This document shows, one piece after another, positions 31,392-59,653 of a stretch of DNA of 64,000 bases. The notes below the pieces were generated by a model. It worked only from the letters and a program-made list of their open reading frames with translations, made no database searches and was not told where the DNA came from. Source of the DNA: a bacterium (GTDB taxonomy: Bacteria; Armatimonadota; Fimbriimonadia; Fimbriimonadales; Fimbriimonadaceae). A program made the position numbers and the translations under genes. Position 1 is the first letter of the stretch; every line of letters begins with the position of its first letter. The DNA is taken from assembly GCA_027485645.1 (NCBI GenBank), contig JAIXQR010000003.1, positions 186,001-250,000 of the forward strand, given 5' to 3'.

Positions 31392-34300
31392 CTAGCGGAC
31401 TCTGTCTTTTTCGAACCAGGTGTAGAGCACGGGCAGAACGAGCAACGTTAGGATCGTCGCTGAAATGATTCCTCCGATGACAACCGTCGCGAGGGGCCGT
31501 TGCACTTCTGCACCGATTCCCGTATTAACTGCCATTGGGATGAATCCTAGTGCCGCGACTAGAGCAGTCATCAAGACAGGGCGGAGCCTTTGAGCCGCGC
31601 CCTCTCTTACCGCATCCATTACATTGAGTTTCCCTTTCTCACGAAGCCCGTTGATGGCGGAAACCATCACGACTCCGTTCAGAACGGCTACTCCTGAAAG
31701 CGCAATGAATCCCACACCCGCGGTGATGCTGAATGGCATTCCTCGCGCGAACAGCGCGATAATTCCTCCCGTGATTGCGAGCGGAACTCCGCTGAAAATC
31801 AGGGTCGCTTGTCGAAGAGAGCCAAAAGTTGAGAAGAGCAGAATGAAGATGAGGGACAGGGCAATCGGCACCACCAATGTCAGCCGAGCCGAAGCCTTTT
31901 GCAGGTTCTCGAATTGCCCGCCCCAGGTGATGTAATAGCCTTCTTTCAACTGAACGTTGCTCCGGATTGCCTTCTGCGCGGCGAGCACGAAGCTACCAAG
32001 GTCGGTTCCTCGCACGTTGAGCTGTACCACGACTCGACGCTTACCCATCTCTCTCGAGATCTGCGCTGGTGCCGGAACAATCTCGATCTGAGCAAGTGAC
32101 GACAGCGGAACACTTCCGCCTTCCGGGGTCTCGATGAGAATAGATTTGATCTCATCCACGTCGTTGCGAATCCGGTCCGGAAGTTTCACTGTCAATGCAA
32201 AACGCTTGTCTCCTTCAATAATTTGCCCAATCGGTTCTCCGCCGAGCGCAACTTTGACTACATCTTGGATGTCATCGATGTTCACTCCCACCCTTGAGAT
32301 GGCATCCCGATCTATATCGATCTGGAGCACCGGCACTTCATCGACCTGCTCGACTTCGACATCCTGGGCACCGGGTAGCGCACGGACAACGGCGGCAATT
32401 TCATCGGCTTTCATCTTTAATTCCCGAAGATCCTCACCAAAAATCTTGATCCCGATATCCGCCTTAACTCCAGAAACCAGTTCAGCGAACCTCATCTGGA
32501 TCGGTTGCGAGAAGTTGTAGCCTTGGCCAGGAACCTGATTGACCTTCTCCGTGAGCTCATCAATGAGCTTCTCCTTTGTCATCCCGGCCCGCCACTTTTC
32601 ACGTGGCTGTAGCATCACAAATGAGTCGGTGAGGCTGAGCGGCATCGGGTCCGTCGCGACTTCGGGAGTACCGCTTCTTGAGAAGATAGTAACGACTTCG
32701 GGTACTTCAAGCACTTTCTTTTCAAAAGCCGTGACGAGTTTGACCGTTTGCTCGGCATCAACCGTTCGCACGCGCACCGGTTGGATGACGAGCGATCCTT
32801 CATCTAATTGCGGAATGAATTCTGATCCTAGCTTTGTGAACAGGATTCCGGAAAGGACGAGCAACCCAACGGCAACCCCTACCGTAACGGCGCGCTGCCG
32901 TAATGCGAATCCCAACGCAAAACGATAAATCCGGCTAAGAAACTCCATGATGGGGTTCCGGCCTTCTTTGGTGTCTCCAGACATAAACATGCTGGCGAGC
33001 ACGGGAATCAACGTCATAGTCAAGATCAGCGCCCCGATGAGCGCGAACACGACGGTGAAAGCCATCGGCTTAAACATCTTGCCTTCCGTGCCTTCGAGGG
33101 CAAGAATGGGCAAGTAGACGACGGTGATGATGGTGACCGCAAAAGCGGTTGGCTTGGCGACCTCTCGGCACGATCCCCACACAGAGTGCCGAACTTCCGT
33201 CCGCTCAAGCGGCGAGCCCTTATGCTCTCGCGCCTCGGCAAGTCGGCGCACCGCGTTCTCGATCATGACGACGGCACCGTCCACGATCAGCCCAAAGTCG
33301 ATGGCACCAAGGCTCATGAGGTTCCCGGATATTCCGAAGCGATTCATGCCGATGATCGCAAACAGCATGGAAAGAGGAATGGCAAGGGCGACGATCACCG
33401 CGCCACGCCAGTTTCCAAGCAAGAGCAGCAGAATCGCGATGACCAAAGCTCCGCCTTCAAGAAGGCTCCGTTCGACGGTGTGAACCGACTCTCCGACGAG
33501 GTCGGAGCGGTTATATACAGTTGTTAACGTCACGTCAGCTGGAAGCTGACTTTTGATCTCGTTCACGCGGGCATTTACGGCATCGGCGACGGTGCGACCA
33601 TTCGCGCCTTTCAGCATCATGACGGTAACCGTCATGGCTTCTTTGCCATCCTTGGTGCTTATTCCGGTGAGGACGGGAATTCCGAGTTGAACTTTGGCTA
33701 CATCCCGAATGAGAACCGGTATTCCTGACTCGGTCTTGACCACGACTTTCTCGAGGTCGCTGAGCTTCGTAGCAAGGCCTACGCTTCGGATCAGAACCCG
33801 CTCACCATTGCGCTCTAAAACACCACCTCCGGCGTTTTGGTTGTTCTTCTGCAGTGCCGTCACGACTTCATCCACCGCGATGCCTCGGGCAAGCAGGGCC
33901 CTCGGCTCAACGATGACTTGGTATTGCTTAACCGATCCGTCGGCAGCGTTGACTTCAGCAACTCCAGGAACGGTTCGAAGTTGCGGCGCAATCGTCCAGT
34001 CTTGCAACGAGCGAAGTTCCATCGGGCTTTGCGTTTTGCTTTCAAGGGCATACATGTAGATGTCGCCCAGTCCCGTTGAAACTGGTCCCATCTGTGGGGC
34101 CTCTATGCCACTAGGCAGAGACTCCTTGACGTTCGTTAGCCGCTCGTTAACAAGGTTCCGAGCAAAGTAGGTCTCAACATCATCGCGAAAGGTTACGATC
34201 ACTTGTGACAGTCCGTACTGGCTCAGGCTGCGGACCTGTTCGACCCCCGGAATTCCCCCCATGGACGTTTCGATCGGAAAAGTGACGAGCTTTTCTACTT

Positions 34301-34478
34301 CTTCCGGACTCATTCCTCCGGTCTCGGTGTTGATTGCAACCTGGTTCGTGGTGATGTCGGGAACGGCATCAAGTGTGAGTTGCTGCCATGAGACAACCCC
34401 AACCGCCACCATCAGAATGGTCGCGATGATCACCAAAAATCTTTGAGTGAGGCTGAAGTGAAGGACTTTGTCCAACAT
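31392..34478 (-). CDS. czcA: CzcA-type heavy-metal RND efflux transporter
   Basis: 1028 aa; GAIDFGLIVDGAVVMIENAVRRL (HME-RND motif of the divalent-cation type), 12-TM RND architecture. Confidence 0.88.
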   Translation of the reverse strand: MLDKVLHFSLTQRFLVIIATILMVAVGVVSWQQLTLDAVPDITTNQVAINTETGGMSPEEVEKLVTFPIETSMGGIPGVEQVRSLSQYGLSQVIVTFRDDVETYFARNLVNERLTNVKESLPSGIEAPQMGPVSTGLGDIYMYALESKTQSPMELRSLQDWTIAPQLRTVPGVAEVNAADGSVKQYQVIVEPRALLARGIAVDEVVTALQKNNQNAGGGVLERNGERVLIRSVGLATKLSDLEKVVVKTESGIPVLIRDVAKVQLGIPVLTGISTKDGKEAMTVTVMMLKGANGRTVADAVNARVNEIKSQLPADVTLTTVYNRSDLVGESVHTVERSLLEGGALVIAILLLLLGNWRGAVIVALAIPLSMLFAIIGMNRFGISGNLMSLGAIDFGLIVDGAVVMIENAVRRLAEAREHKGSPLERTEVRHSVWGSCREVAKPTAFAVTIITVVYLPILALEGTEGKMFKPMAFTVVFALIGALILTMTLIPVLASMFMSGDTKEGRNPIMEFLSRIYRFALGFALRQRAVTVGVAVGLLVLSGILFTKLGSEFIPQLDEGSLVIQPVRVRTVDAEQTVKLVTAFEKKVLEVPEVVTIFSRSGTPEVATDPMPLSLTDSFVMLQPREKWRAGMTKEKLIDELTEKVNQVPGQGYNFSQPIQMRFAELVSGVKADIGIKIFGEDLRELKMKADEIAAVVRALPGAQDVEVEQVDEVPVLQIDIDRDAISRVGVNIDDIQDVVKVALGGEPIGQIIEGDKRFALTVKLPDRIRNDVDEIKSILIETPEGGSVPLSSLAQIEIVPAPAQISREMGKRRVVVQLNVRGTDLGSFVLAAQKAIRSNVQLKEGYYITWGGQFENLQKASARLTLVVPIALSLIFILLFSTFGSLRQATLIFSGVPLAITGGIIALFARGMPFSITAGVGFIALSGVAVLNGVVMVSAINGLREKGKLNVMDAVREGAAQRLRPVLMTALVAALGFIPMAVNTGIGAEVQRPLATVVIGGIISATILTLLVLPVLYTWFEKDRVR

Positions 34479-36076
34479 CAGTGCTCATGCCCCTTGAGTT
34501 CCGACTTCTTCTGTTCGCTGGACAGAACGAACGCTCCCTTTGAAGCTACGACATCTCCAGCTTTAACGCCGGAAACAAGCGAGACCATTTCGCCATATTC
34601 TTGTCCAAGTTCAACTTCGTGCTTGTCGAAGCTGTCTCCATCCTGCACGAAAACGTACGTCTTTTTGCCTTCGTTCAGGATCGCGGTCCTTGGGATCACC
34701 ACCGCTCGTATCGTCGTACCAATTCCGAGGCGGATCGTGGCAAACATCTCTGGCACGAGTCGGCCACCCGCAGAAGCGATGAGGCACTGCGCGGGAATAG
34801 ACCTGGTCTTGGGATCGACACGAGACCCGACGACTTGCACCACGCCATGGAACACTTGGCCCGGTAGTGCGGCAACCGTTACTTGAACCGATGCACCTTT
34901 GCGAACCTTTGCCGATTCCTGCTCGGGAACGTTAGCGGTGACCCAGACCGATTGGAGATTCTCGACCTCCATAAGTACTTGGGTTCGATCTACGGCTTGT
35001 CCGCGCGTGACATCTAAATGAGTGATCGTTCCTGAGATTGGAGCAATCAACGCCACCTTACCAACGGAGCCGCCGCCTGTTCCACGGTTTGATGAGTACA
35101 CCGCGCTCGCGTTGACAATCAATTTATCTGCGCTTGCTAGAGCAGACTGGGCTGACCGGACGCGCAAACGTGCGCGATCGAGTTCTAACTGACTCAGGCG
35201 CACGTCGGCTTCTGCCGTCTGAAGTTCTTTGGCATTGAGGAGACCTCGAGACGCAATGTTTCGTTCTCGCTCGTAGGTGGCTTTAGCGTTCTCGATCTTC
35301 GCTTTGGTTCGATCTAGCCGAATTTGATCTTGCTGAAGCTCTAGTCGGGAAGCTTCAAGTTCTGACTTCGAGACGATGCCATCTTTGAACAGATTTTCGA
35401 GCCGACGAAGTTGCTCAGCGTGGCTCGCTTGCTCTTTCTGAACGCTGAGCAATTCGCTTTGAGCTTCGTTAAGTTCGTTCTGCGCTTGTTGGATTGGAGC
35501 TTGACTAAAAGCACCCGCTTTCACCAGCTCGCGTTGTCGAGTAAGGCTCGCCTTCGCGGCGCTTAGTTTTGCACTGGCGAGGTTAACCTCCGCCTGTGCT
35601 TGGCTCAGGTCCGCGATTGCGACCTCACGAGTTCTTCTCGCGTCTGCAATGCTTCCCCACACCTCGGCTAACTCAGGTGATTCCAACGTCGCAAGGGTTT
35701 GACCTTGCTTTACAACGTCGCCCAATTGCACCGAGAGCGAGATGATTCGTCCTGCTACCGGCGGAGTCACAACCGCCTTTCCCTTTGTCGTGCTCTGTAC
35801 GATTCCGGGAATGGAGAGGGAGCTTTGGATTTGCCGAAATTCGGCCGTGAAGGTTTCCACGCCTGCGAGCTTCATTCCCTCTGGAGACAGCTTGACTTGT
35901 CCTTCAACGTGCTCCTCTTCGCCTTCCTTATGCTCGGCTTCGCCTTCTTTGTGCTCGTCCTGTCCTTCAACGTGACCGGCTTCTTCGTGACCCTGAACAT
36001 CGGTTCCTGACTTTTCGGGTTGACCGCAGCCAACGAGGATCAAGCTCATGATAATGATCGGCCACAGCCTTCTCAT
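34478..36076 (-). CDS. czcB: RND periplasmic adaptor (CzcB-like) with His/Glu-rich N-terminal repeat
   Basis: Lipoprotein-like LVGCGQPE; GHEEAGHVEGQDEHKEGEAEHKEGEEEHVEGQ; VTPPVAGRIISLSVQLGDVVKQGQTLATLESPEL. Confidence 0.88.
   Translation of the reverse strand: MRRLWPIIIMSLILVGCGQPEKSGTDVQGHEEAGHVEGQDEHKEGEAEHKEGEEEHVEGQVKLSPEGMKLAGVETFTAEFRQIQSSLSIPGIVQSTTKGKAVVTPPVAGRIISLSVQLGDVVKQGQTLATLESPELAEVWGSIADARRTREVAIADLSQAQAEVNLASAKLSAAKASLTRQRELVKAGAFSQAPIQQAQNELNEAQSELLSVQKEQASHAEQLRRLENLFKDGIVSKSELEASRLELQQDQIRLDRTKAKIENAKATYERERNIASRGLLNAKELQTAEADVRLSQLELDRARLRVRSAQSALASADKLIVNASAVYSSNRGTGGGSVGKVALIAPISGTITHLDVTRGQAVDRTQVLMEVENLQSVWVTANVPEQESAKVRKGASVQVTVAALPGQVFHGVVQVVGSRVDPKTRSIPAQCLIASAGGRLVPEMFATIRLGIGTTIRAVVIPRTAILNEGKKTYVFVQDGDSFDKHEVELGQEYGEMVSLVSGVKAGDVVASKGAFVLSSEQKKSELKGHEH
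35899..35995 (-). repeat. Imperfect 21-bp tandem repeat coding the (D/E)EHxEGE array
   Basis: tcgccttccttatgctcggct / tcgccttctttgtgctcgtcc / tgtccttcaacgtgaccggct. Confidence 0.6.
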
Positions 36077-37266
36077 TTGAGCACCTCCGAAAGGAAGCCG
36101 GTCGCTTTATACTGGGCGACAACCGCGAGTGAGAGTTGGTACCTGGCCTCGACCAACTCCTGTTCAACTTCTCGTAAAGCGCGGGTGGCCTCGAGGACAT
36201 CAACCTGAGTTCCGAACCCTTCTGAGTAAGCAGTTTGCGACTTAGCTACGAGTGTTCTGGCTGCAGCCAGAATGCGTTCGTATTCGAGAATTTGACTCTC
36301 CCGAGCTTTGACTGCGACTTGTGCCGCCGACAGCTCTCCCCGTGCCTTCAACGTGGCGTCTTGGAGAAGCAGGGCGATGGCTTCAGATCGGTATACGGCT
36401 GCTCTGGTTTCGTTCTTCGCCTTTCCGTGATCGTGTAGTGCCCAACTGAGTTGCAGTCTGCCTGCAAAGTAGCCAGGAGCATTGCTCCAGGGTGAGCGTA
36501 CGAGGAGAGCGCTGAGCTCGGGACGATTAGAAACTCGTGCGCCTTCCGCCTCACCTAGAGCCAGTTGAATCTGCGCTCGCAGCAATTGCAGATCAGCACG
36601 GGTTTCAATTTCTGGAGTGTCAAGCGGGCGAATTTTCGCATCCGACTCAAGCTTCAAGTTTGCTTTGTCCGTCCCGAGCAGTCCGGCTAAGGTTTGTAGT
36701 GAAGCGTTGAGTTCAGCATCCGTAAGTACGGCAGCTTGCTTTGCACGCGCCAGCTCAATCGTAGCTCGTGTCACCTGAGTTTCGGCGACTTTGCCTTCAT
36801 CGAATCGTCGCTTAGTAGCGGCTAGCAAGCCTTCCGATATCTTCAGCAACTCGGCGGCAACTTCGGTTTGGTGCTGGTTTGCCACCGCACCCGCGAATGC
36901 CAAGAGGACTTCACTTTGGAGATCAGATGCGGCCGAGACATACTCGGCCAACGAAAGCTGGACACCAGCGTTGCCGATGCGTGCACTCGCTTTTCTGCGA
37001 CCAAAGAGGTCCAGCGGCTGGGAAACCTGTAAGTCTTGGTCATTCGGGCCGAGCTCACTTCGGCTTGAAGCCCCAGCCAAGAACATGGTTGGAGCGTAGG
37101 CTCCCATGGCCTTTGCAGTAGCGCGAGCTTGTTTGATTCCAAGCCTGGCGGACTTTAAGGCAGGGCGATTCTGCGCGGCAAGTTTCAGCGCGTCGTTTGC
37201 GCTGAGGGGCGTTTGAGCTTGGCTCGAGAACGCTAAAGAGATTGATATGAGATGAAAAACTTCCAT
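36073..37266 (-). CDS. czcC: TolC-family outer-membrane efflux protein (CzcC-like)
   Basis: LSANDALKLAAQNRPALKSARLGIKQARA...YSEGFGTQVDVLEATRALREVEQELVEARYQL; 4-nt overlap with the adaptor. Confidence 0.82.
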   Translation of the reverse strand: MEVFHLISISLAFSSQAQTPLSANDALKLAAQNRPALKSARLGIKQARATAKAMGAYAPTMFLAGASSRSELGPNDQDLQVSQPLDLFGRRKASARIGNAGVQLSLAEYVSAASDLQSEVLLAFAGAVANQHQTEVAAELLKISEGLLAATKRRFDEGKVAETQVTRATIELARAKQAAVLTDAELNASLQTLAGLLGTDKANLKLESDAKIRPLDTPEIETRADLQLLRAQIQLALGEAEGARVSNRPELSALLVRSPWSNAPGYFAGRLQLSWALHDHGKAKNETRAAVYRSEAIALLLQDATLKARGELSAAQVAVKARESQILEYERILAAARTLVAKSQTAYSEGFGTQVDVLEATRALREVEQELVEARYQLSLAVVAQYKATGFLSEVLK

Positions 37267-37311
37267 TAATTGCTCCACGCGGCGGCATGGCTGGAGCAAG
37301 GAAGGCGCTAC

Positions 37312-37758
37312 TTACAACGTGCTCGATCTTGCGTCCAGCGGACGAATTCGATGCGTAGATTCAGGCGGAGCACGTGAGGAGTGGGGGCTCGGGGGGCCGG
37401 TCGCGGGTGCAGACGGCACATATACCGGTCTTACCGCCGTGATTTGAAGGCGCTGAAACTGAATGTGTTTCAGGGGAATTGGAACGTCGATGAACTCGAA
37501 GGCCGGTTGGCTTTTGCTTTGCTCGGCTTGATCATGGTCGTCGCACGAGTCGAGTTCACAACAGTCGTGACAATCACCGTGGCTGTCTGAAACAAAGTCC
37601 GTATCAAATCGTTGCTGAGGACTCTTAGTATCAATCAGTTGCGGGCAGACGGCACACTTTTGACCATCTGGGAGCTGGTATGACGCTTGGCACAGGTGGA
37701 CCTGGCCAAAGAACAACACCCATATTAGGAGCATCGCTACGCGTCTCAAGAACGCCAT
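37312..37758 (-). CDS. Small secreted Cys/His/Asp-rich protein leading the RND operon
   Basis: Signal peptide; CAVCPQ...SHGDCHDCCELDSCDDHDQ. Confidence 0.6.
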   Translation of the reverse strand: MAFLRRVAMLLIWVLFFGQVHLCQASYQLPDGQKCAVCPQLIDTKSPQQRFDTDFVSDSHGDCHDCCELDSCDDHDQAEQSKSQPAFEFIDVPIPLKHIQFQRLQITAVRPVYVPSAPATGPPSPHSSRAPPESTHRIRPLDARSSTL

Positions 37759-42940: not shown

Positions 42941-45904
42941 ATGCTGCCGGTCCTGATGTCGCTCGTTAAGGGAGTCTACGATCTATTAGTAACCGACAGC
43001 GTGCGCGCGAAGCTTGAAGCACTTCCACCAAGTCTGGAAGCGGTTGTACATACCCTTGACCTGCAAGACCTAACTGAGTACTTAGCTCGAGAAATTTTGC
43101 TGCGGACTCGAGAACAGTTGAGGTTCACGGACGACGTGGATCAGGCGATTTCGCAGACCGTCAAGGCCATTCAACAGCTCGGCAAAGATGAGCTTATCGA
43201 GGCATGCGTGCTTGCCGCCGTGAAAGACAAGGTGGGTACCGTCACCCTTCCAGAAATTCCTCTTGCTCACAACGCACTCGTAACAAACGAAAGCAAGGTC
43301 AATTACGCGCACATCCTCCGTAAGGAACTAGCTTCGGCAGATCGCGTGGACGTCATCTGTCCGTTTATTGGCGTTGCGGGGCTGAACCTCATTTTCAAAG
43401 AGCTTCAGGAACTTGGAAGTCGACTGCGTGTCGTGACGACGACTTATCTCGGCGGAACGCACACGCGAGCATTGGTCAGGATTGCAGAAACCAACGCGAG
43501 TGTAAAAATTGCGTACGAAAGCCGCGACCAAAAGACGAGTCTCCATGCGAAGTCCTGGATTTTTCACCGGGACTCGGGGGCCAACACGGCAACAATTGGT
43601 TCATCGAACATTTCTCCAAACGCCCTTGTCGATGGCCTGGAATGGAACGTCCGGGTGAGCGCGATTGAGTCACCACAGCTTTTCGACGGACTCAAGAGCA
43701 CGTTTGAGCGCCTTTGGAATGATCCCCAATTCGAAGACTTTGACCCGGCGAGGGATACCGAACGCCTCACCAGCTCACTGAAAGCTCAAAGAAGTCCCAA
43801 TCCGGTTGCGATGTTCTTTGCCGACCTCGCCCCGCATCCTCACCAAGCGGAGGCACTTGCCGAACTTCAATACGCGCGGCTTGAGGGGCGGAGAGAGAAC
43901 CTCGTCGTTGCTGCAACCGGTACGGGAAAGACCCTTCTAGCCGCATTTGACTACAAACGGTTGTGTGAGACAGCAAAGGGACGTCTTAAACTCTTGTTCA
44001 TCGCTCACCGAGGCGACATTTTGGAGCAATCCCTTGGCGCCTTCCGAGCGGTGTTGCGCGACAAAGAGTTTGGGGAGCTCAACGTTGGACAGGATAAAGC
44101 AGACGACTGGAATTATGTTTTCGCTTCGATTCAGTCTTTCAGCGAAAAGAGGCTGAGTGAGTTTTCACCAGATCATTTCGACGTAATTATCGTCGACGAG
44201 TTTCACCACGCCGAGGCAAGGACTTATCAGCGGTTACTCGATCATTTTCGGCCCTCGCAGTTGCTCGGCTTAACGGCTACTCCTGAGCGAACAGATGGGC
44301 GATCGGTGATTGATCGATTTGGTGTTCCCACTTTTGAGTTGCGACTCTGGCATGCGCTCGAGCGAAACTTACTCTGCCCGTTTCACTACTATGGGATCAA
44401 TGATAATACGGATCTTAGTAGCGCCGACTTTATCAGCGGAAAGTATGTCGATTCCGAGCTAGAGAAGGAATTTATAGAACGCGGGGATGAACGAGTCCGG
44501 ATCATCCTTCATGAGTTGCAGGAGAAAGCGCCCGAGCTCGATGGACTTCGCGCGGTGGCCTTTTGCGCGACGATTCGCCACGCCGATTACATGGCAAAGC
44601 AGTTTGTTTCGGCAGGTTACGTTGCGGTCGCGCTCCACTCCGGACGCTCGGCGGAAGACCGAGATCGGATCATGTCCGAATTCAGGAAGGGCGATATCCA
44701 AATCGTGTGCACGGTCGATCTTTTCAATGAGGGTATCGATGTCCCCGAAATCAATACGGTCCTTTTCCTGCGCCCAACCGAAAGTTCAACGGTCTTCATC
44801 CAGCAACTCGGACGAGGGCTTCGAAAGCACTCGGACAAGGGCGCGCTAACCGTGCTCGACTTTGTTGGTCAGCAGAATCGGAAGTTTCGATGGGATTTGC
44901 GTTACCGAGCCATCACGGGACAGACCCGGATGGAGTTGCAGCGGGCAATCAGCGATGAGTTTCCACAGTTGCCAGCAGGCTGCAACATCAGGCTAGATAA
45001 GGCGACTCAGAAACACATCCTTGACGGGATAAAGAACGGGATCCCAACGAACAAACGGGCGATGATTGATGAAATTCGTCGCCTTGTTGCCGCGGGCAAA
45101 GAGATCACAGTGTCCAGCTTCATTCGCGAGTCAGGAGTCGAGCTCTCAGATCTTTACCGTGGACACTCGTTGCACCACTTGCTTGTGAGCGCCGGCATTG
45201 AAAACGCCGAGGACGAAGCCGTCAAACGGGTGAGTAGCTTTATTCATTTGAACGACGCTCTAAGGATCGACGGTTATCGAAATGCGTTAAGAGAGACACG
45301 GGAATCCGTTTGGTCGCGGATGATCTCCTTCCCATTATCACGCTCAATGGATTTAGGGAATATTGCGCCGAGGGTTCGCCAAGAGATGCTCGAACTCTTA
45401 GATTATCTGGCGACATATGCCTTACACCGACCTGCTCTGGCTGCAGATCTTCCATTTGTAATTGGGATGGACTATTCGCGAGACGAGATCGTGGCGCCTT
45501 TTCGCGATAATCCGGAGTCGATGCGACAAGGCACGTTTTACGTCCGGGAGGCTGAGCTAGACGTCCACCTAGTTACGCTCAAGAAAACGGAGCGGAACTT
45601 CTCGCCCTCCACGATGTACCAGGACTATTTCATCGATCCGAGCAAGCTTCACTGGGAGAGCCAATCCACAACGTCAGCCCTCTCCGCCACTGGACAACGT
45701 CTCATCCTTGGGGAAGGGCGGCATCTCTTCTTTGTTCGCAGCGAGAAGTCCAGCATTGGCGGCGTGGGTCCCGTACCTTTCACCTGCGTTGGATTTGCGA
45801 AGCCGACTTCCCATGAGGGTGAACGACCAATTACACTCGTCTGGAAGCTGGAAACACCTGTGACCGACCACACCTGGGTTCGGTTCAAGGCCGCCTCGGG
45901 GTAG
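42941..45904 (+). CDS. PLD nuclease-like domain + SF2 DEAD/DEAH helicase + DUF3427-like C-terminus
   Basis: SLHAKSWIFHRDSGANTATIGSSNIS (HxK...GSSN), VVAATGTGKTLLAAFD (Walker A), VIIVDEFHHAEA, LGLTATPERTDGRS, QQLGRGLRKHSDK; C-terminal FYVREAELDVHLVTLKKTERNFSPSTMYQDYFIDPSKLHWESQS. Confidence 0.88.
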   Translation: MLPVLMSLVKGVYDLLVTDSVRAKLEALPPSLEAVVHTLDLQDLTEYLAREILLRTREQLRFTDDVDQAISQTVKAIQQLGKDELIEACVLAAVKDKVGTVTLPEIPLAHNALVTNESKVNYAHILRKELASADRVDVICPFIGVAGLNLIFKELQELGSRLRVVTTTYLGGTHTRALVRIAETNASVKIAYESRDQKTSLHAKSWIFHRDSGANTATIGSSNISPNALVDGLEWNVRVSAIESPQLFDGLKSTFERLWNDPQFEDFDPARDTERLTSSLKAQRSPNPVAMFFADLAPHPHQAEALAELQYARLEGRRENLVVAATGTGKTLLAAFDYKRLCETAKGRLKLLFIAHRGDILEQSLGAFRAVLRDKEFGELNVGQDKADDWNYVFASIQSFSEKRLSEFSPDHFDVIIVDEFHHAEARTYQRLLDHFRPSQLLGLTATPERTDGRSVIDRFGVPTFELRLWHALERNLLCPFHYYGINDNTDLSSADFISGKYVDSELEKEFIERGDERVRIILHELQEKAPELDGLRAVAFCATIRHADYMAKQFVSAGYVAVALHSGRSAEDRDRIMSEFRKGDIQIVCTVDLFNEGIDVPEINTVLFLRPTESSTVFIQQLGRGLRKHSDKGALTVLDFVGQQNRKFRWDLRYRAITGQTRMELQRAISDEFPQLPAGCNIRLDKATQKHILDGIKNGIPTNKRAMIDEIRRLVAAGKEITVSSFIRESGVELSDLYRGHSLHHLLVSAGIENAEDEAVKRVSSFIHLNDALRIDGYRNALRETRESVWSRMISFPLSRSMDLGNIAPRVRQEMLELLDYLATYALHRPALAADLPFVIGMDYSRDEIVAPFRDNPESMRQGTFYVREAELDVHLVTLKKTERNFSPSTMYQDYFIDPSKLHWESQSTTSALSATGQRLILGEGRHLFFVRSEKSSIGGVGPVPFTCVGFAKPTSHEGERPITLVWKLETPVTDHTWVRFKAASG

Positions 45905-51313: not shown

Positions 51314-52813
51314 ATGAATGAGATGGTCGCTGCCCTTGCTCTCACCTCTCAACTTCTCGCTAGTCCTGCCGCCCCGATGATCGACGCTGCGGCGTTGAAA
51401 GCCGACTTGGCGGTGCTTCGCCAAGCCTTAACAACGATCCACCCCGGGTTGTATCGGTACCAATCTCCCGCTCAGTTTGAGGCGGAGATGAAGAGCCTTG
51501 AACGCAGGTTTGCCAAGGGGGCAACTCAGGCAGAGGTGTTTCTCGCCCTCTCAGCGTTCACAGCAAAAATTCGGTGCGGGCATACCTTTCCTAGTTTTTG
51601 GAACCAACGGGATGAAACGCAGGCGAATCTGTTTCTAGCGAAGGACAAACTGCCCGTTGCCTTCCGCTGGCTTGGAGGAAAGATGATCGTGACGCGCAAC
51701 GACTCGAACTCGAATGCTCTGAAGCCAGGCACGATGATCAAGAAGATTAACGATGTGCCCAGCGAGGTCGTGTTGAAGACGCTGCTGCAACTTGTCAAAG
51801 CGGACGGTCGAAACGATGCCAAACGGGTCGCCGAGTTGCAGCTTCAGGGGCTCAATGAGTGGGAAGCGTTTGATATTTACTACTCGCTGGCATACCGGCC
51901 AACGGAGAAGTTTAAGCTTGATGTCATTCAACTGGATGGGAGCCAGCAATCCATCGTCGTAGACGCGGTGGACCACGCAGCTCGCGAAGCTATGCGCGCA
52001 TCCTTAACTCCCAACTTAAAGGAGGATAGCGAACTGTGGAACTTCACTTGGGTTCGTCCGGATATGGCGGTACTCACTATGCCAAATTGGGTGCTATACA
52101 ATTCGAAATGGAACTGGAAAGAGTATCTGCGTTCGCGATTTATCGAGCTTCAAGCGAAGGGAGCAACAAGCTTAGTCCTGGACATCCGTGGGAACGCCGG
52201 TGGGAACGAATGTGGCGATGAGATCATGCGATACCTGGTGCCGGAACGACGCAGCGTTCCAGCCGATCTGACTTACGTTAAGTACCAAAAACTTCCGGCG
52301 GACCTGGAAGCACATGTGAGGACCTGGGTTCGTTCCTACTACGATTGGTCTCGCATCAGTAAGCCTGCCGGGCCTGTGAAATTGCTGAATACCACCGCCT
52401 ATCAAATTCGCTCAGATGTGCGGGATGCCACGATTTTTCCCGCAACGCCGAGGTTCCGGGGCAAGGTTTACGTGCTCGTTGACGCAGAAAATAGCTCGGC
52501 AACGTTCCAATTTGCCCAGCAAATGCGAAGATTCAAAGTCGGTACCTTGGTCGGCCAGCCGACCGGCGGCAGTCGACGTGGAATCAACGGCGGGGCGATT
52601 TTCTTTACCACGCTCCCGAACTCGGGAATCGAGATTGATATCCCGATCATCGCGTCTGTTCCGACGACAGATCAGCCAGACGAGGGCTTGGTGCCAGACG
52701 TTGTGATTCAAGATTCAAGGGCCGACATTGCCACAGGTCGAGACTCGGTTATGGAGTGGGTTCTGCGTCAGAAAGCACCCGTTCGCGAAAAGCAGTCGGT
52801 GTCTGGCCAGTAA
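51314..52813 (+). CDS. S41-family (C-terminal processing-like) peptidase
   Basis: SLVLDIRGNAGGNECGDEI; VYVLVDAENSSATFQFAQQMRRFKVGTLVGQPTGGSRRGINGG. Confidence 0.78.
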   Translation: MNEMVAALALTSQLLASPAAPMIDAAALKADLAVLRQALTTIHPGLYRYQSPAQFEAEMKSLERRFAKGATQAEVFLALSAFTAKIRCGHTFPSFWNQRDETQANLFLAKDKLPVAFRWLGGKMIVTRNDSNSNALKPGTMIKKINDVPSEVVLKTLLQLVKADGRNDAKRVAELQLQGLNEWEAFDIYYSLAYRPTEKFKLDVIQLDGSQQSIVVDAVDHAAREAMRASLTPNLKEDSELWNFTWVRPDMAVLTMPNWVLYNSKWNWKEYLRSRFIELQAKGATSLVLDIRGNAGGNECGDEIMRYLVPERRSVPADLTYVKYQKLPADLEAHVRTWVRSYYDWSRISKPAGPVKLLNTTAYQIRSDVRDATIFPATPRFRGKVYVLVDAENSSATFQFAQQMRRFKVGTLVGQPTGGSRRGINGGAIFFTTLPNSGIEIDIPIIASVPTTDQPDEGLVPDVVIQDSRADIATGRDSVMEWVLRQKAPVREKQSVSGQ

Positions 52814-53864
52814 CTTGCTTGAAGCTACGGTTGAAGCTGGCTTTCGAGTTAAATCCACACTCGAAGGCCAGCTCAATCATATCGCGATCTTCCGCCGGGT
52901 TGCGCAGGAGGGTGGTCATCTCTTCAACCCGGAGGCGGTTGATGAAGCCGTTGAAACTCTCGTTACGGGCATTGTTGAGGGCCCTTGAGACGTAGCCAGG
53001 CGAGAACTCGACCGCGTCTGCGAACAGCGCTAACGTGAGTTGAGGGTCCTGCCAGAGTTTTTGTTGTCGGCATCGCTCTTCGATTTGGTCTGCCACTTTC
53101 GCCCAATCTTTCGGTGCCGGAACTGAGACCGGAAGCGGCCCGGCGGTCGGTTCTACCGTGATCTGCGGTACGGGATCCTGGAGGCGAAGAGCACCGTTGC
53201 CGATGATGTAGACCACGACGGCATTGCAGAGATAGAGCGGGTACCGGTCGAAGTAGGTGGAGTTCGGGCGGAACTCGGTCACCACCTGGAACACTAGGTC
53301 GACCACGAGGAACGCCGCAAATGTCCAGAGGGTCACGGTGAGGAACCGAACCGTCAACGGTGCCTCCTGCGTCATGTTCTGCTGTGTGAATGCCTCGTAA
53401 TCTCGCGTGCGCCGGAGGGAGAGCCAGAGGTAAGCGCACAGCGAGATCAGGCCCCAGTAGCCATCTAGCGGATCGATGATGACCTGAACCCGGCCGTGCC
53501 AAGAGTCTTTGAACTCCAGTGGCTGGAGGAACATGACGCTGTAGTACAGCGACTCAATGGCGAGCGGGACCAAGTGCCAGCCCCAGCCTTTCGGAAGCTT
53601 TTCGGCCGTCCGGGTGAGAACAAAGAAGTACAGCAATGGCCCAAAGCCCGACTCAAGTTCGAATGGGGCATAGCTGAGCCAAGGATATTGCTGATAGAAG
53701 CCCGAAAACCCGAGCACGTAGGGGACGAGCTTGAGGGAAACCAAGAAGATCAGGGCCGCGAGGAACCGGTGCGCGATGTAATCACGCTTTGTCCCCAGAA
53801 GCGTTCCGACCACGATTGCGCCCTGAATCAGGCCCAAAAGCAGAACGGTACTCGCGGTGCTCAT
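52749..53864 (-). CDS. Membrane-linked AraC-family regulator
   Basis: N-terminal multi-TM; C-terminal ALFADAVEFSPGYVSRALNNARNESFNGFINRLRVEEMTTLLRNP...IELAFECGFNSKASFNRSFKQVTGQTPTAFRE. Start refined from 54161. Confidence 0.85.
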   Translation of the reverse strand: MSTASTVLLLGLIQGAIVVGTLLGTKRDYIAHRFLAALIFLVSLKLVPYVLGFSGFYQQYPWLSYAPFELESGFGPLLYFFVLTRTAEKLPKGWGWHLVPLAIESLYYSVMFLQPLEFKDSWHGRVQVIIDPLDGYWGLISLCAYLWLSLRRTRDYEAFTQQNMTQEAPLTVRFLTVTLWTFAAFLVVDLVFQVVTEFRPNSTYFDRYPLYLCNAVVVYIIGNGALRLQDPVPQITVEPTAGPLPVSVPAPKDWAKVADQIEERCRQQKLWQDPQLTLALFADAVEFSPGYVSRALNNARNESFNGFINRLRVEEMTTLLRNPAEDRDMIELAFECGFNSKASFNRSFKQVTGQTPTAFRERVLSDAEPTP

Positions 53865-53930: not shown

Positions 53931-54362
53931 ATGCGCACCCGGAACGCATGGCTCCTTTTGGTCATGCTGTTCAGCCTCATCTTTCCGAGCTTCCCGGCGT
54001 CGGCTGCTTTGCCGAAGCCGGTGAAACAGTCGTGTGAGATGAAGTGTTGCCGCCGGCCACAACCGGCCAAGGTTGCGACACCGAAGTGCCACCAGGCCGC
54101 AGCAGAGTCGGCGGTGGCTACGGAATGTAAGTGCGCGCTGAACTCGGGCGAGCCAGATCAACCGCTTGATTTGACGCTCGTTACCCGAACGGCCGCGAAT
54201 GATCTCAGCTTCCTGCTGTCACCTGCCGTTCCACTGCGCGCAGAACCCGAGCAGGTCATTGAGAGATGCGATTCAAGGATTGAAACGCGGGAGCCAACCG
54301 AGAGTCAAGACGGCCACGTTGGATGCTGGCTCGGCCGTGCGCCGCCGATTGCGTTGGGATAA
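53931..54362 (+). CDS. Small secreted Cys-rich protein
   Basis: Signal peptide LLLVMLFSLIFPSFPASA, then CEMKCC..., KCH, ECKC. Confidence 0.55.
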   Translation: MRTRNAWLLLVMLFSLIFPSFPASAALPKPVKQSCEMKCCRRPQPAKVATPKCHQAAAESAVATECKCALNSGEPDQPLDLTLVTRTAANDLSFLLSPAVPLRAEPEQVIERCDSRIETREPTESQDGHVGCWLGRAPPIALG

Positions 54363-54427
54363 CTGCGCCTGCACTTCGGTGTTGGGCGAACTCGTTACTG
54401 TACACCGACCCAATCCCATTACACACC

Positions 54428-55585
54428 ATGCCCATTTTTGCGCTATTACCACTGCTGCCTGTGCAGCACCATCAAACATCCAAGCTGCCCCCGGTCTCGC
54501 AAGTCCAAATCGATGACTACCAAGTTAAACTCCGAATTCCCGACTCGGGAATCTATGCAGGCGAACCGCTCGACCTAGAATTCCGGGTGACCGATACCCG
54601 CCAGAAAGACCCAGTGGAGAATGGGTTCAAGGGCGTTGGCGGCATCACGGCCACCGCAAAAGTCACGATGCCGAGCATGCAAGGGATGCCGGAAATGCGA
54701 CCTAAAGTCCATCGTGAAGGCGTTCCGGGCGACTACGGTCTGGAACTGTTTTTCCCTCACGGCGGGATATATCAGATCGATCTTTCGCTGAAGCTTCCGG
54801 GTGTCGAGACGCCAAAGGCCGTGACTTTTTGTGTTGCGGTGAAGGATGAACGCCCCGCCGGGAGCAAGGTTCAGGCGCCCTACAAGCTCCGCGTTCTGCC
54901 GCAGAGTTCGCCTCGTGTCATGGGCAAGTCAACCGAACTTCAGATGCAGGTGGTCAACACGAAGACGGGGCAAGTTGAGAAAGCGTTCGACGAAGCGCAT
55001 ACCCAGAAATTCCACTTGCTGATTGCGAGCCAGGACCTGAACTGGTTCCGGCACGAGCATCCGGTCATGGCTCCTGATGGCACCTGGAAATACTCCCTCG
55101 CTTTCCCGGCAGGGACCGACTACCTCGTCTTTGGCGACGTTGCTCCTCAGGGGCAAGGCTCCCGAATTCTCGCATCTCGGGTCTCGGTTAAGGGCACAAA
55201 GCCGGCGTGGAACACGCGGATTGCTCTGAATTCGCAGAGTACAGACAATGGTTTGAAAGGACTTTTCAGCTCGGCGAACAAGGTCAAGTCGGCGCAGTCG
55301 GCCGTTCTGCAGGTGAAGCTGTTCGATAGTAAAACCGGAATGGCGGCGGGAGACACCACGCCTTGGCTCGGTGCGGCCGGGCACATGATGATCTTCCACA
55401 CCGATGGCAAAACGGTGGTGCACAGTCATCCGCAGGAAGATGCAGAGAGCGAGGAGCTGGTCCGCAAAGGAATTGTGAGATTCTCGGCGCGATTTCCAAA
55501 GCCCGGGACCTACAAGGTTTATGGTCAATTCAGTTGGCGCGGCTCGATCCGAACTTTGAGCTTTGGGCTGAAGGTGCAAGAATGA
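54428..55585 (+). CDS. Secreted YtkA/FixH-like protein with two HxHP motifs
   Basis: Start refined from 54323. DYQVKLRIPDSGIYAGEPLDLEFRVTD...ITATAKVTMPSMQGMPEM; FRHEHPVMAPDG and VVHSHPQEDAE. Confidence 0.65.
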   Translation: MPIFALLPLLPVQHHQTSKLPPVSQVQIDDYQVKLRIPDSGIYAGEPLDLEFRVTDTRQKDPVENGFKGVGGITATAKVTMPSMQGMPEMRPKVHREGVPGDYGLELFFPHGGIYQIDLSLKLPGVETPKAVTFCVAVKDERPAGSKVQAPYKLRVLPQSSPRVMGKSTELQMQVVNTKTGQVEKAFDEAHTQKFHLLIASQDLNWFRHEHPVMAPDGTWKYSLAFPAGTDYLVFGDVAPQGQGSRILASRVSVKGTKPAWNTRIALNSQSTDNGLKGLFSSANKVKSAQSAVLQVKLFDSKTGMAAGDTTPWLGAAGHMMIFHTDGKTVVHSHPQEDAESEELVRKGIVRFSARFPKPGTYKVYGQFSWRGSIRTLSFGLKVQE

Positions 55586-56046
55586 AATTTCAAACCCTAA
55601 TCTTCACGGCGGTCTGCCTCTCGGTGGCGGCAGTGTCAGTTGCGCATGAAGGGGACTGCCCATTCTGCAAACTGAAGCTGGTCCAGAACACGGCAGACCA
55701 AGACAACGAAGTCGTGCTTCGGTTTGGGAACAAGAAAATCGAGTACCGGTGCATCTTCTGCGTTTTCAAAGATCAGAAGCGATACAAAGGGGACCTGGTT
55801 GTTTACGCGCCGAGCGAGAAAGTTGGCGAACCGGTGATCTTGAAGCGAACCGACGGCAAATGGACTGCGCCCGAAGGCGTGGTCTTCCTGAACTCATTCA
55901 AGAAGCACGTTGACTGCGCGGCACTTTCACGCGCGTTCTCGAGCGTGACCGCATATGACACTTATGTCAAAAAGAACGACCTGAAGGAGACCAAGGCGTT
56001 CAGCTTGGCGGAGTTTGTTGATTTCGTGGTGAAGCCGGCAAAATGA
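55582..56046 (+). CDS. Secreted CxxC/RCxxC protein (NosL-like?)
   Basis: Signal peptide; DCPFCKLKL...YRCIFCVFK...VVFLNSFKKHVDCAALSRAFSSVTAYDTYV; ATGA overlap. Confidence 0.65.
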   Translation: MKFQTLIFTAVCLSVAAVSVAHEGDCPFCKLKLVQNTADQDNEVVLRFGNKKIEYRCIFCVFKDQKRYKGDLVVYAPSEKVGEPVILKRTDGKWTAPEGVVFLNSFKKHVDCAALSRAFSSVTAYDTYVKKNDLKETKAFSLAEFVDFVVKPAK

Positions 56047-57524
56047 TCGCTTTGCTCGGCCTCATGCTCTCGGCTGGCTTGGGGCAAAGCCAGCTGCCAC
56101 CTCTTCCCCCAGACTTGCCAAGCTGGATTCGGGCGAAGGGGATGGATGAGCTGTACTACAAATCGGCCCCTTACAACTGGTCGATCAATCGCGTTCCAAA
56201 GTTTGCGCGCGACATGTATGCAACGGGAGTGGGGCATGCGATGGCGTATGAGGCGATGTCCAAAGGGCAAGTGAGCGCTCTCGATACTGAGACCTTTTCC
56301 AAGATTGATCGTGTTCTGAGAAATCCGCCAAAGTTGCCGGTGGACGAAATGGCGATCTCGCCGACGTTCGTTCGAAAATACGGCTACTTGGAGAAAGTTT
56401 TTGACTGGGCGCATACTTTGCACTTCCAAACCATTGACGTGCTGGCTTATCCAGGCTGGAGCAACGCGAGAAAGGAGCAGGAGCTCGACGAACTGTGGAG
56501 CTTCTACCAATCTGAGCCGTACGCCCTGACCGGGCTACCCATGAACATGGAGTACCTGGATGGATTTTCGTACTCCAAGCGTTTTCGGCAGCAGTATCCG
56601 AAGCTAAACGGCCTTTTCTGGGGCTACCACTGGTTGCAAACGGTGAATTACGACATGCTCTTTGGCGTGCCGACCGCCAACCAAGCGGCGCAGTACGAAG
56701 TGCTCGGCGAGCGGTACCACGAAGTCGAACTATACAACGAAACTCGGGATTTCATGCCGATGACCGCCGAGCTCAGCCCGAGATTTGCAAAGCGTTTTCC
56801 GCAGCTAGCGAATGCGTTTGACAACCTCCACATGCTGCACGATAACGTCAACGACATCTTGGCACAGCCCGGGTTAACCGACTTACAGCGCGAACAGCAG
56901 ATTCAAATCGCGATCTACCGGGTGCTGGATTCCACTCATCGTGGAGAGTCGCCGGGCAGCGGAACTCCAAACTCGCTCCACGATCACCGGCATCCGCCGA
57001 GCATGCCCGGAATGGGGATGATGGTCGGCAGCGACGAGGACGAGATGTACATGGGTGGCATGGGATGGATGAACATGGCCGAATGTGGGCATTGCTCGGT
57101 CCCCATGCCAGCAGAGGAGCCCTGGGGTGCGACGGTTACCGCCAACGGCTGGACAATGTCGGTTCGATGCCTGATGTGCGCCCGAGACATGGCGAGTGAA
57201 ACGCCGGGACGAGCGATCATTCGCGCGGCCACCGAAGATCCGAAGCAACTGCTGATCCTGGTTTCGGACGATGAGGGGAACTGGACATCAAACTTAGCCA
57301 CGGTCGTTTTCCTGGAGAAGTTTGGTGAGCATCCCGACTGCTCGGGATGGTCGAGGGCATTTACAAGTACAGCAGCGCTCAATAGCTATCTTGTGGCTAA
57401 TCCAGAGTATGCGGGGATGCCTGGGCTCTCACTGGCAGATTGGAGCAAATTGAACCAAGGAAAGCCAGATACCTACCGACGGATCGACCGCCCCAACCCG
57501 TACCGAAAGGATGGCGAGGAATGA
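56043..57524 (+). CDS. Secreted orphan protein with Met/His-rich linker and C-terminal CxxC/RCxxC domain
   Basis: HDHRHPPSMPGMGMMVGSDEDEMYMGGMGWMNMAECGHCSVPM...VRCLMCARDM...VVFLEKFGEHPDCSGWSRAFTSTAALNSYL; ATGA overlap. Confidence 0.65.
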   Translation: MIALLGLMLSAGLGQSQLPPLPPDLPSWIRAKGMDELYYKSAPYNWSINRVPKFARDMYATGVGHAMAYEAMSKGQVSALDTETFSKIDRVLRNPPKLPVDEMAISPTFVRKYGYLEKVFDWAHTLHFQTIDVLAYPGWSNARKEQELDELWSFYQSEPYALTGLPMNMEYLDGFSYSKRFRQQYPKLNGLFWGYHWLQTVNYDMLFGVPTANQAAQYEVLGERYHEVELYNETRDFMPMTAELSPRFAKRFPQLANAFDNLHMLHDNVNDILAQPGLTDLQREQQIQIAIYRVLDSTHRGESPGSGTPNSLHDHRHPPSMPGMGMMVGSDEDEMYMGGMGWMNMAECGHCSVPMPAEEPWGATVTANGWTMSVRCLMCARDMASETPGRAIIRAATEDPKQLLILVSDDEGNWTSNLATVVFLEKFGEHPDCSGWSRAFTSTAALNSYLVANPEYAGMPGLSLADWSKLNQGKPDTYRRIDRPNPYRKDGEE

Positions 57525-58264
57525 AGCTTCCGTTCGCTTTGGCGATTTGGTTCACCGCCTCGCTCTGCTTGGCTCAGAGTGACCACAACAACTTGGATAA
57601 GGAACGGCCGCTGACGTTCGAAGACGCGTACTCGATCGCGTACCGATCGTATGAGCTACAAACTGGGTTCAGCGCGTTTGCGTTTCAGAAGCGCCAACCG
57701 CAGTACGGGCTTCGAACCGAAATTCAGTACGGCATCGCGAAGAATCGAGACTTGTCGATCGGATGGGACCCCGTTTTCGATTCTCAATCGGCTCGTGTGC
57801 GCGGGGACAATCTGGAGCTGAGCTACTTTGAGGGCCTGACCCGTGAAATTGGAAACTCACCTGCGGTTGGGTATCGGATCGAGGCGGAAATGCCGACGAC
57901 CGGATCAGTTCGCGACGCTGACGTGCGAGCCCGGTTGGTTTTGACCAAGCGCGCAAAGACCTACGACAAGTTTCATTTGAACCTAGGAGTCGCCGGGAAC
58001 GGGAAGCTTGCATTCGGCGCGATTCTGGGCTACTCCCTCCCGTTGGGGTACCCGCGTCAATTCGACACAACTCTCCTGGCCGAACTGGCCGTGGAGCAAA
58101 GCCGACAGGCATCGGGCCAGAACCACTGGGCGGGACTTGGCATTCGTCGCCAGGTTGATGTGACAACCGTTTTGGACTACAGCATTCGGATGCGATTCAG
58201 ATCGGCGGTTACCGAGAACCGGAATGCCCTCATTTTTACCGTCGGGCTATCGAAGAGCTTCTAA
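57521..58264 (+). CDS. Outer-membrane beta-barrel-like / transporter-like protein
   Basis: Signal peptide MKLPFALAIWFTASLCLAQ; alternating beta-strand pattern GLRTEIQYGIAKNRDLSIGWDPVF...VLDYSIRMRFRSAVTENRNALIFTVGLSKSF; ATGA overlap with the previous gene. Confidence 0.6.
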   Translation: MKLPFALAIWFTASLCLAQSDHNNLDKERPLTFEDAYSIAYRSYELQTGFSAFAFQKRQPQYGLRTEIQYGIAKNRDLSIGWDPVFDSQSARVRGDNLELSYFEGLTREIGNSPAVGYRIEAEMPTTGSVRDADVRARLVLTKRAKTYDKFHLNLGVAGNGKLAFGAILGYSLPLGYPRQFDTTLLAELAVEQSRQASGQNHWAGLGIRRQVDVTTVLDYSIRMRFRSAVTENRNALIFTVGLSKSF

Positions 58265-58355: not shown

Positions 58356-58961
58356 ATGAGACACTTTTCTGTCACAGCAATTCTCGTCCTATCGGTTTCG
58401 GGAGTAGCAGCACTGCAAATTCCGACCCGCATGTCCGACTCGGCAATGTTCGTTTCGCCGTTCGAAGCTAAGGTATTAGCTTTCGAAAACGAGATGGGTT
58501 CTGCCGTGGGAACTGACCTTGTAAAGAAGGAAATGACCCGCATAAACGGCCGAATCGAACTGATGCAGCACCCGACCACGGAGAAGGTTGAGTACCGCGC
58601 GTCGATGAAGTACAAGATTACTTGGACTCCGCCCACGCCCGATTCGCAAGCCCCTACCCTGATTCGCGTTAAGCTATCGCCTTACATTAACGGTACAGCT
58701 GTTGAAAACGGAGTTGCGGAAGCCTTCCAAGGCATCGCCAGCATTTACCGCCAAGACAACAGCGATACGTTCTTCAGCGGAATGACCTTGGTTCTCCCGA
58801 AGATCTACCAAAACCTTACGATGCAGAAGGTCGACGGAGAGTACGTTGCTTATGGCAACCTCCAATTCCCGAAGTTATCGGTTACGCGAAACAGTGAAGT
58901 CGCGCCTACGAAAGTGTCGTACGACGTCATCATTGGGAAGGTTGAAGAGGTGAAGCCATGA
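58356..58961 (+). CDS. Secreted protein of unknown function
   Basis: Signal peptide MRHFSVTAILVLSVSGVAA; 4-nt overlap with the next gene. Confidence 0.55.
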   Translation: MRHFSVTAILVLSVSGVAALQIPTRMSDSAMFVSPFEAKVLAFENEMGSAVGTDLVKKEMTRINGRIELMQHPTTEKVEYRASMKYKITWTPPTPDSQAPTLIRVKLSPYINGTAVENGVAEAFQGIASIYRQDNSDTFFSGMTLVLPKIYQNLTMQKVDGEYVAYGNLQFPKLSVTRNSEVAPTKVSYDVIIGKVEEVKP

Positions 58962-59653
58962 GGTTGGCGATGGCCATTGCCTTCGTTGGGCTCTCAAGCT
59001 TTGCATGTGCCGGCAAGTTCTTCTTCGGCATCCCACGGTTAAAGAAAACCGACTACACGATCTCCGGAGATTCGACCTGGAACAACACGCTCGGCACCAA
59101 CATGGCGCAAGCGGAGGCAACGTCAAAGGCCACATTCACTTTGGTCCCAGGTTCAAACCGAAGCCAGCTGTCGTGCGCCATGGGGATCATGTCGTATGAG
59201 TTCGACGTGTTTTTCACGGAGACGGTGGAAGGCGAGGGGCAGCCAGGACTAGTTCTGTTGAGCCGCGTAGTTGAGGGCACCCTGACGGGATCGATCGCTA
59301 CCAGCGGTGGCAGCGGCGTTCCAAATTCGGGATACCTCGAGTTCGATTCCCGACTTGGTCACGGCGTCAATGACGCTTCGGCGGCAACCTACAACGTCAA
59401 CTACCCTGCCGGTTCTTGGCCGCTTTCCATCACCATGAATTCCGGGAAGGTGTACCGTGAGTACCCTGCTCGTTTTGAGGGTGGTTGGATCCTTGTACGT
59501 AGCGGAAAAGGGCTAAGAACTTGGAAGCGAACGATCCCATTCTCTGCACCCGAAGTCAAGGCACAGGCAAACGCTTATCTGACCGGATATTTTCCGTATA
59601 AGCCAGAAGTCAACGCCAAGACAACCATGCAGTTGAAGCTGGAAATTGATTGA
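58958..59653 (+). CDS. Secreted protein of unknown function
   Basis: Signal peptide MRLAMAIAFVGLSSFACA; ATGA-coupled. Confidence 0.55.
   Translation: MRLAMAIAFVGLSSFACAGKFFFGIPRLKKTDYTISGDSTWNNTLGTNMAQAEATSKATFTLVPGSNRSQLSCAMGIMSYEFDVFFTETVEGEGQPGLVLLSRVVEGTLTGSIATSGGSGVPNSGYLEFDSRLGHGVNDASAATYNVNYPAGSWPLSITMNSGKVYREYPARFEGGWILVRSGKGLRTWKRTIPFSAPEVKAQANAYLTGYFPYKPEVNAKTTMQLKLEID

Follow-up and report, generated by a model that had tools for sequence, protein, structure and literature searches.

Five consecutive genes at 53931-58264 of a 64,000-nt stretch of Armatimonadota DNA (contig JAIXQR010000003.1, positions 186,001-250,000; referred to below as the window), from a genome of the Fimbriimonadaceae type, raise the question of what kind of system they encode and whether they operate as one unit. 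A preliminary description made from the sequence alone had taken all five for components of an undescribed envelope system handling a soft metal, probably copper. We compared the locus with its relatives, which are metagenome-assembled genomes of Armatimonadota. The answer that we consider probable is that genes 2-5 form an envelope copper-handling operon, and that this operon is controlled by a nascent-chain sensor encoded by gene 1 (Table 1). In the relatives, the gene order, the metal ligands and the RAPP motif of gene 1 are conserved, and an RNA stem between the end of gene 1 and the start of gene 2 covaries. With order and ligands conserved and copper genes lying beside the cluster in relatives, the idea of a novel soft-metal system has held up; that of gene 1 as one of its metal-handling parts has not.

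Table 1. Coordinates of the genes, of the proposed control elements and of the second leader in the window
Feature	Coordinates	Strand	Remarks
Gene 1	53931..54362	+	Cys-rich leader, predicted to be exported; 143 aa, C-terminus GCWLGRAPPIALG; proposed metal-sensing RAPP arrest peptide
RAPP codons of gene 1	54336..54347	+	From the sequence; predicted arrest point has the first Pro codon (54342-54344) in the P-site, after PMC10987492
5′ arm, proposed RNA switch	54345..54359	+	Second Pro codon to last gene 1 codon; TTGGG at 54354-54358; weak in window, strong in relatives
3′ arm, proposed RNA switch	54409..54424	+	Just upstream of the gene 2 start (CCCAATCCCATTACAC)
Gene 2	54428..55585	+	YtkA-domain protein with HEHP and HSHP motifs
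Gene 3	55582..56046	+	Small exported protein, MerB/NosL fold (predicted), CxxC, RCxxC and HxxC
Gene 4	56043..57524	+	His/Met-rich helical domain (about residues 27-300), HDH/Met-rich linker, second MerB-fold domain (about 334-470)
Gene 5	57521..58264	+	Outer-membrane beta-barrel-like protein
Second Cys-rich exported open reading frame with RAPP	37312..37758	-	RAPP codons 37363-37374; heads the resistance-nodulation-division (RND) operon

All five open reading frames (ORFs) are located as first described, and ATGA overlaps occur precisely at 55582, 56043 and 57521, so that genes 2-5 are coupled. Gene 2 starts at 54428, the first in-frame ATG past gene 1, which leaves a spacer of 65 nt; because of this spacer, and of a regulatory-leader anatomy detailed below, gene 1 is placed outside the coupled set. 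Only gene 2 has a Pfam match (YtkA, E=7e-11), and NCBIfam provides no name for any of the five products. Relatives of gene 4, full-length or nearly so and with 47-87% identity, were found in about 30 of 251 sampled Armatimonadota genomes and, through a separate scan of GTDB genomes, at 22 loci. Fimbriimonadaceae and related families retain the order gene 2-3-4-5, and since this order is kept across Armatimonadota, the block is not a chance assembly. At some distant loci gene 2 is placed 3′ of gene 5, and in several other families the leader and gene 2 are followed instead by an exported protein of 500-630 aa with a barrel-like end. Thus the expected conservation of gene order is borne out for genes 2-5, but not for the five genes as one coupled unit, gene 1 being separate and leader-like.

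What, then, is gene 1? Its homologues (n=35) have a mean column identity of 22%, and nothing in them is invariant but three Cys and the PP of RAPP; the Arg is present in at least 90%. The motif lies a few residues from the stop codon, directly 5′ of gene 2; it is RAPP in most cases, RGPP in four, RSPP in one and LAPP in one. Nearly all loci at which the upstream ORF was found, in several Armatimonadota families, have RAPP or RGPP near its C-terminus. The N-termini are hydrophobic and resemble export signals, as judged by sequence only and not by a signal-peptide program. The window copy carries CEMKCC together with RAPP; its Cys motif is therefore CxxxC(C), not CXXC. Proteomes are depleted of RAPP and RGPP, which support strong arrest of the ribosome; the exceptions are small exported upstream ORFs (uORFs), some of which sit upstream of copper genes (PMC12992588). 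The ribosome halts when the third motif residue occupies the P-site (PMC10987492). Among the 526 six-frame segments of at least 60 aa in the window, a single one has a RAPP/RGPP-type motif in its last 15 residues, and this is gene 1. A small exported ORF, upstream of others, with RAPP close to its C-terminus and no match to any Pfam family, gene 1 is best read as a RAPP arrest-peptide leader.

The second line of evidence comes from the RNA. In the relatives, the gene 1 codons from the second Pro on can base-pair with the region around the gene 2 start, so that a ribosome stalled at RAPP would open gene 2; examples of arm pairs are CCTATGTTC/GAACATAGG at locus L037, CCTGTGTTC/GAACACAGG at L040 and ACCTTTCAAG/CTTGAAAGGT at L120. 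For 30 dissimilar groups, the true arms gave -13.6 kcal/mol as against -9.3 (standard deviation (SD) 0.46) for swapped arms, and none of 20,000 permutations was as good. When the register was set at the AGG upstream of gene 2, 101 of the 168 cells after the second Pro codon were paired in a sample that includes some closely related loci, the expectation being 73.9 (SD 5.3; 0 of 20,000 permutations). From an alignment of 15 sequences, RNAalifold recovered the outer stem unprompted. A two-helix structure pairs 86.7% of the cells, compared with 23-40% in slid registers, a comparison that somewhat favours the unslid register since the structure was derived from L037; six of its pairs are altered on both sides, i.e. 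they covary. In terms of energy, the mean cost of opening the gene 2 start in relatives is 8.8 kcal/mol when the RNA is free and 4.4 with a ribosome at RAPP; it amounts to 6.6 when a control stretch is masked and to 4.7 when the arm is shuffled (p = 2e-8 versus shuffled).

These features suggest the following mechanism. Gene 1 would be exported during its synthesis, and binding of Cu(I), or of a similar soft metal, to its Cys motifs would decide whether the ribosome halts at RAPP. The putative stem would have the codons from the second Pro as its 5′ arm and the translation-initiation region of gene 2 as its 3′ arm. Upon completion of gene 1 the stem would form and genes 2-5 would be kept low; upon a halt at RAPP the ribosome would cover the 5′ arm, the gene 2 start would open, and genes 2-5 would be made through ATGA coupling. 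Metal on the nascent chain would most likely prolong the arrest, as in CutF. The products, i.e. a YtkA/HxHP protein, two proteins with a thiolate site in a MerB/NosL fold, one of them fused to a His/Met helical domain, and a barrel, would then sequester copper in the envelope and hand it on. We infer here the arrest itself, the identity of the metal as copper, its promoting rather than relieving the arrest, and the transfer of copper between proteins.

The sign of the response might also be the reverse: copper would relieve the arrest and switch the operon off, and genes 2-5 would serve acquisition of copper or assembly of cuproenzymes under limitation. Gene 1 ends in RAPP as does CruR, the operon of which is shut off by copper (PMC9426467), YtkA domains help CuA assembly in Bacillus subtilis (PMC13344008), and the gene 5 barrel could import. 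But in relatives the surrounding genes serve mostly export and resistance (P1B ATPase, CsoR, RND), and a short spacer with a start-sequestering stem is what is seen with CutF, whereas CruR has a long Rho-dependent region. We regard this opposite sign as unlikely, although it is far from negligible.

The proteins encoded by genes 2-5 carry conserved Cys, His and Met residues as likely metal ligands. Gene 2 scores 43 bits with YtkA (PF13115), above the cut-off of 25.9. The two HxHP motifs noticed at the outset are both present (HEHP at 55052-55063 and HSHP at 55421-55432) and each is kept in 58 of 59 gene 2 sequences; little or no variation is seen in an MPxMxGMP stretch and at further His, and many relatives have N-terminal YHS/TRASH domains before the YtkA part. 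In gene 3, C26, C29, C60 and C112 are invariant, C57, H22 and H109 nearly invariant. Its AlphaFold model (predicted local distance difference test (pLDDT) 89) retrieved MerB first with Foldseek (probability 1.00, TMq 0.58) and NosL second (probability 0.80, TMq 0.47). As for families, 14 of the 24 gene 3 proteins gave weak Pfam matches to MerB, the three compared with the cut-off falling below it; NosL (PF05573) had no match in the window genome and one among the 24 gene 3 proteins, at E=0.012. The catalytic residues of MerB are Cys96, Asp99 and Cys159. In a short and weak alignment of gene 3 with the MerB2 profile, C57 falls on the cysteine of 'CAIS' and C112 beside the second active-site cysteine; both Cys positions thus appear to be occupied, and the Asp99 position appears to hold a Cys. 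Since the Asp appears to be replaced in this way, lyase chemistry is not expected and we reject gene 3 as a MerB organomercurial lyase; from its sequence it is rather expected to form a soft-metal thiolate site.

Towards its C-terminus, gene 4 contains another copy of the CxxC/RCxxC domain seen in gene 3, and the homology proposed between the two is significant (phmmer E ~3e-9). The models predict a MerB/NosL fold for gene 3 and for the gene 4 C-terminus, with MerB as the nearer relative: the early hint at NosL came close as to fold, but Pfam does not place either domain in NosL. The gene 4 model (pLDDT 88, predicted template modelling score 0.89) has PDB matches for its MerB-fold part only; the helical domain, in which His and Met are invariant, has neither a Pfam nor a PDB match. 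Matches by phmmer to designed TPR proteins were reproduced neither by profile nor by fold and were discarded. Helical domain and gene 5 adjoin, without the MerB-fold part, in Methylobacterium plasmids and in Gemmatirosa (L138 7752-9997, L139 7650-10005 and L140 4542-7206). In L138, from Methylobacterium, a CsoR-like ORF lies just upstream of the pair; in L140, from Gemmatirosa, the pair is preceded by a Cys/His-rich ORF ending in APEPPPPRA. Relatives of gene 5 match Phenol_MetA_deg in 3 of 24 cases (best E 7e-5). The Cys, His and Met ligands are thus conserved, as the preliminary description had called for. We also noted in one genome (L064, 7983-9698, minus strand) a gene 4 MerB-fold domain fused to a long barrel-like C-terminus containing Met and His, without the helical domain.

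Copper is the likeliest metal because copper genes are often beside the cluster in relatives. There, the cluster is interleaved with or flanked by genes for DUF305, YHS/TRASH, DUF2231, cupredoxin, CsoR, HMA and P1B ATPase, and CopA, CopZ and RND efflux genes are also frequent neighbours; where long flanks were available, about one locus in two has one or more copper-type or RND neighbours. Such neighbourhoods are not expected by chance, since the window genome (3.2 Mb) has a single E1-E2 ATPase.

Several results weigh against sensor control by gene 1 or against copper. The window's own stem is weak (the arm ranks 12th of 29), and since the pairing test restricted to the window was non-significant, the RNA claim rests on the relatives. 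The cost of opening the gene 2 start is 3.6 kcal/mol there, compared with 2.5 when RAPP is occupied and 2.2 with shuffled arms, and gene 2 has no clear Shine-Dalgarno sequence. A ribosome at RAPP leaves the gene 2 start closed in L117, L118, L119 and L121; the leader was not detected at L050/L051; and RAPP is replaced by LAPP in L046 and by RSPP in L104. As to the metal, no HMA domain was found in the window genome (98% complete), and the one E1-E2 ATPase found has an SPC motif; copper is therefore deduced from the relatives. Finally, the MerB fold leaves room for mercury. The sister locus L032 has an 11-bp stem of which the window retains, by inspection, 9 pairs, and the switch may be loose or altered in the window species. 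This species seems, from its genes, to have no classical CopA copper pump; its CsoR is on another contig.

The metal could be mercury, silver or several thiophilic metals instead of copper, and the MerB-fold proteins would then bind Hg(II) or organomercury. MerB is the closest fold, its family is weakly matched by many gene 3 proteins, and its two active-site Cys positions appear to be occupied. But the apparent Cys at the Asp99 position speaks against lyase chemistry, and those neighbours in relatives that were classified, a part of the total, are of the copper type with no mer operon, which makes another metal improbable in our view. It is more improbable still, to the point that we give it little credit, that gene 1 is an ordinary secreted metal-binding protein, with RAPP and the RNA pairing mere by-products. 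Export, the richness in Cys and the presence of Cys among the few invariant residues would fit such a protein, but the conservation pattern disfavours it, RAPP being kept as strongly as Cys while the rest diverges, always at the very C-terminus and directly before gene 2, and a covarying stem would have no reason for a mere binding protein.

The cluster had also been described as adjacent to a CzcABC operon. In fact, the CzcCBA/CusCBA-like RND operon (31392-37299) lies 16.6 kb away on the opposite strand, and many unrelated genes (peroxidase, methyltransferase, helicase, MFS and others) are found in between. RND genes are near the cluster in L037, L041 and L064. Because a second Cys-rich RAPP ORF precedes the RND operon of the window, the two operons are linked by type of regulation, not by position. 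This second leader has RAPP 16 residues before its stop codon, and in folding calculations a ribosome placed at RAPP lowers the start-opening cost from 15.3 to 9.4 kcal/mol. Similar RAPP/RGPP ORFs adjoin the RND genes in L037, L041 and L064, and one more is present in L048.

Other genes of the window were set aside. Two secreted proteins encoded at 58356-59653 were rejected as members of the system: among the loci examined, they occur only in the sister L032. Divergent from gene 1 is an AraC-family regulator (HTH_18; 52749-53864, minus strand) with a membrane-like N-terminal half; it was not retained as part of the system, a divergent neighbour of similar size being seen in L032 only. A large helicase with PLD-like, ResIII and DUF3427 domains (42941-45904, plus strand) is possibly a defence-type gene.

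Two linked novelties may be contained in this locus, and that both hold together is a tentative claim, somewhat short of an even chance. One is a switch in which the RAPP codons and those just after them constitute the anti-start arm, unlocked by the stalled ribosome; the window has two operons headed by such leaders. The other is a new envelope copper device, found in three phyla and made up of a His/Met helical domain for which no structure is known and the barrel that accompanies it; MerB-fold thiolate domains would have been added to this device in Armatimonadota. Copper-sensing leaders of the RAPP or CutF type are known as a kind; the present case is a phylum-wide variant attached to envelope proteins that form an undescribed set. 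The main texts of PMC12992588, PMC10987492 and PMC9973294 make no mention of Armatimonadota. Two leader peptides that sense copper have been elucidated, both of them in Proteobacteria, and their logic is opposite, off for CruR and on for CutF. A family spread over a phylum other than Proteobacteria, and combining RAPP with a covarying stem that sequesters the start, would establish that metals are widely sensed in this manner, and its many natural variants could be used to probe how metal binding affects arrest. The operon also offers a likely role for two unstudied kinds of metal protein: exported MerB-fold proteins and the helical His/Met domain without a Pfam family.

How does gene 1 compare with the known leaders? 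CruR (DUF2946) of Bordetella pertussis, in which copper control depends on Cys and RAPP (PMC9426467), is likewise a small exported protein with a Cys motif and a C-terminal RAPP, encoded first in a copper operon, and gene 1 has both the Cys motif and the RAPP. However, the CruR spacer is a 162-bp Rho-dependent region, whereas that of gene 1 is short with a start-sequestering stem, and the downstream genes differ. Gene 1 is not a DUF2946 member by Pfam: PF11162 had no match in the window copy and one among 35 homologues, at E=0.24. In CutF of Rhodobacter capsulatus, copper control operates via a stem hiding the start of the next gene (PMC9973294). It shares with gene 1 an exported leader, CxxxC, a Pro-rich C-terminus, a short spacer and a start-hiding stem, the latter being found between leader and next gene across the relatives and weakly in the window. 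Unlike CutF, gene 1 has a RAPP arrest motif, its arm consists of the arrest codons and those following, and no multicopper oxidase is encoded downstream. ApdA, ApdP and Streptomyces uORFs also have RAPP near the C-terminus of a small exported uORF, but ApdA and ApdP monitor protein export, whereas gene 1, the arrest of which is proposed, is Cys-rich and tied to metal genes.

As for the operon, gene 3 resembles MerB and NosL in predicted fold and in the positions of its soft-metal Cys. It differs from them in being small and exported, with an extra CxxC, no equivalent of Asp99 and no Pfam match above the cut-off, and gene 4 in having the MerB-fold domain fused to a new helical domain. Gene 2, like YtkA/CtaK and the C-terminal domain of YcnJ, has a YtkA domain in a copper setting (PMC13344008); it is distinguished from these by further conserved parts with HxHP and by the YHS/TRASH domains that many of its relatives carry at the N-terminus.

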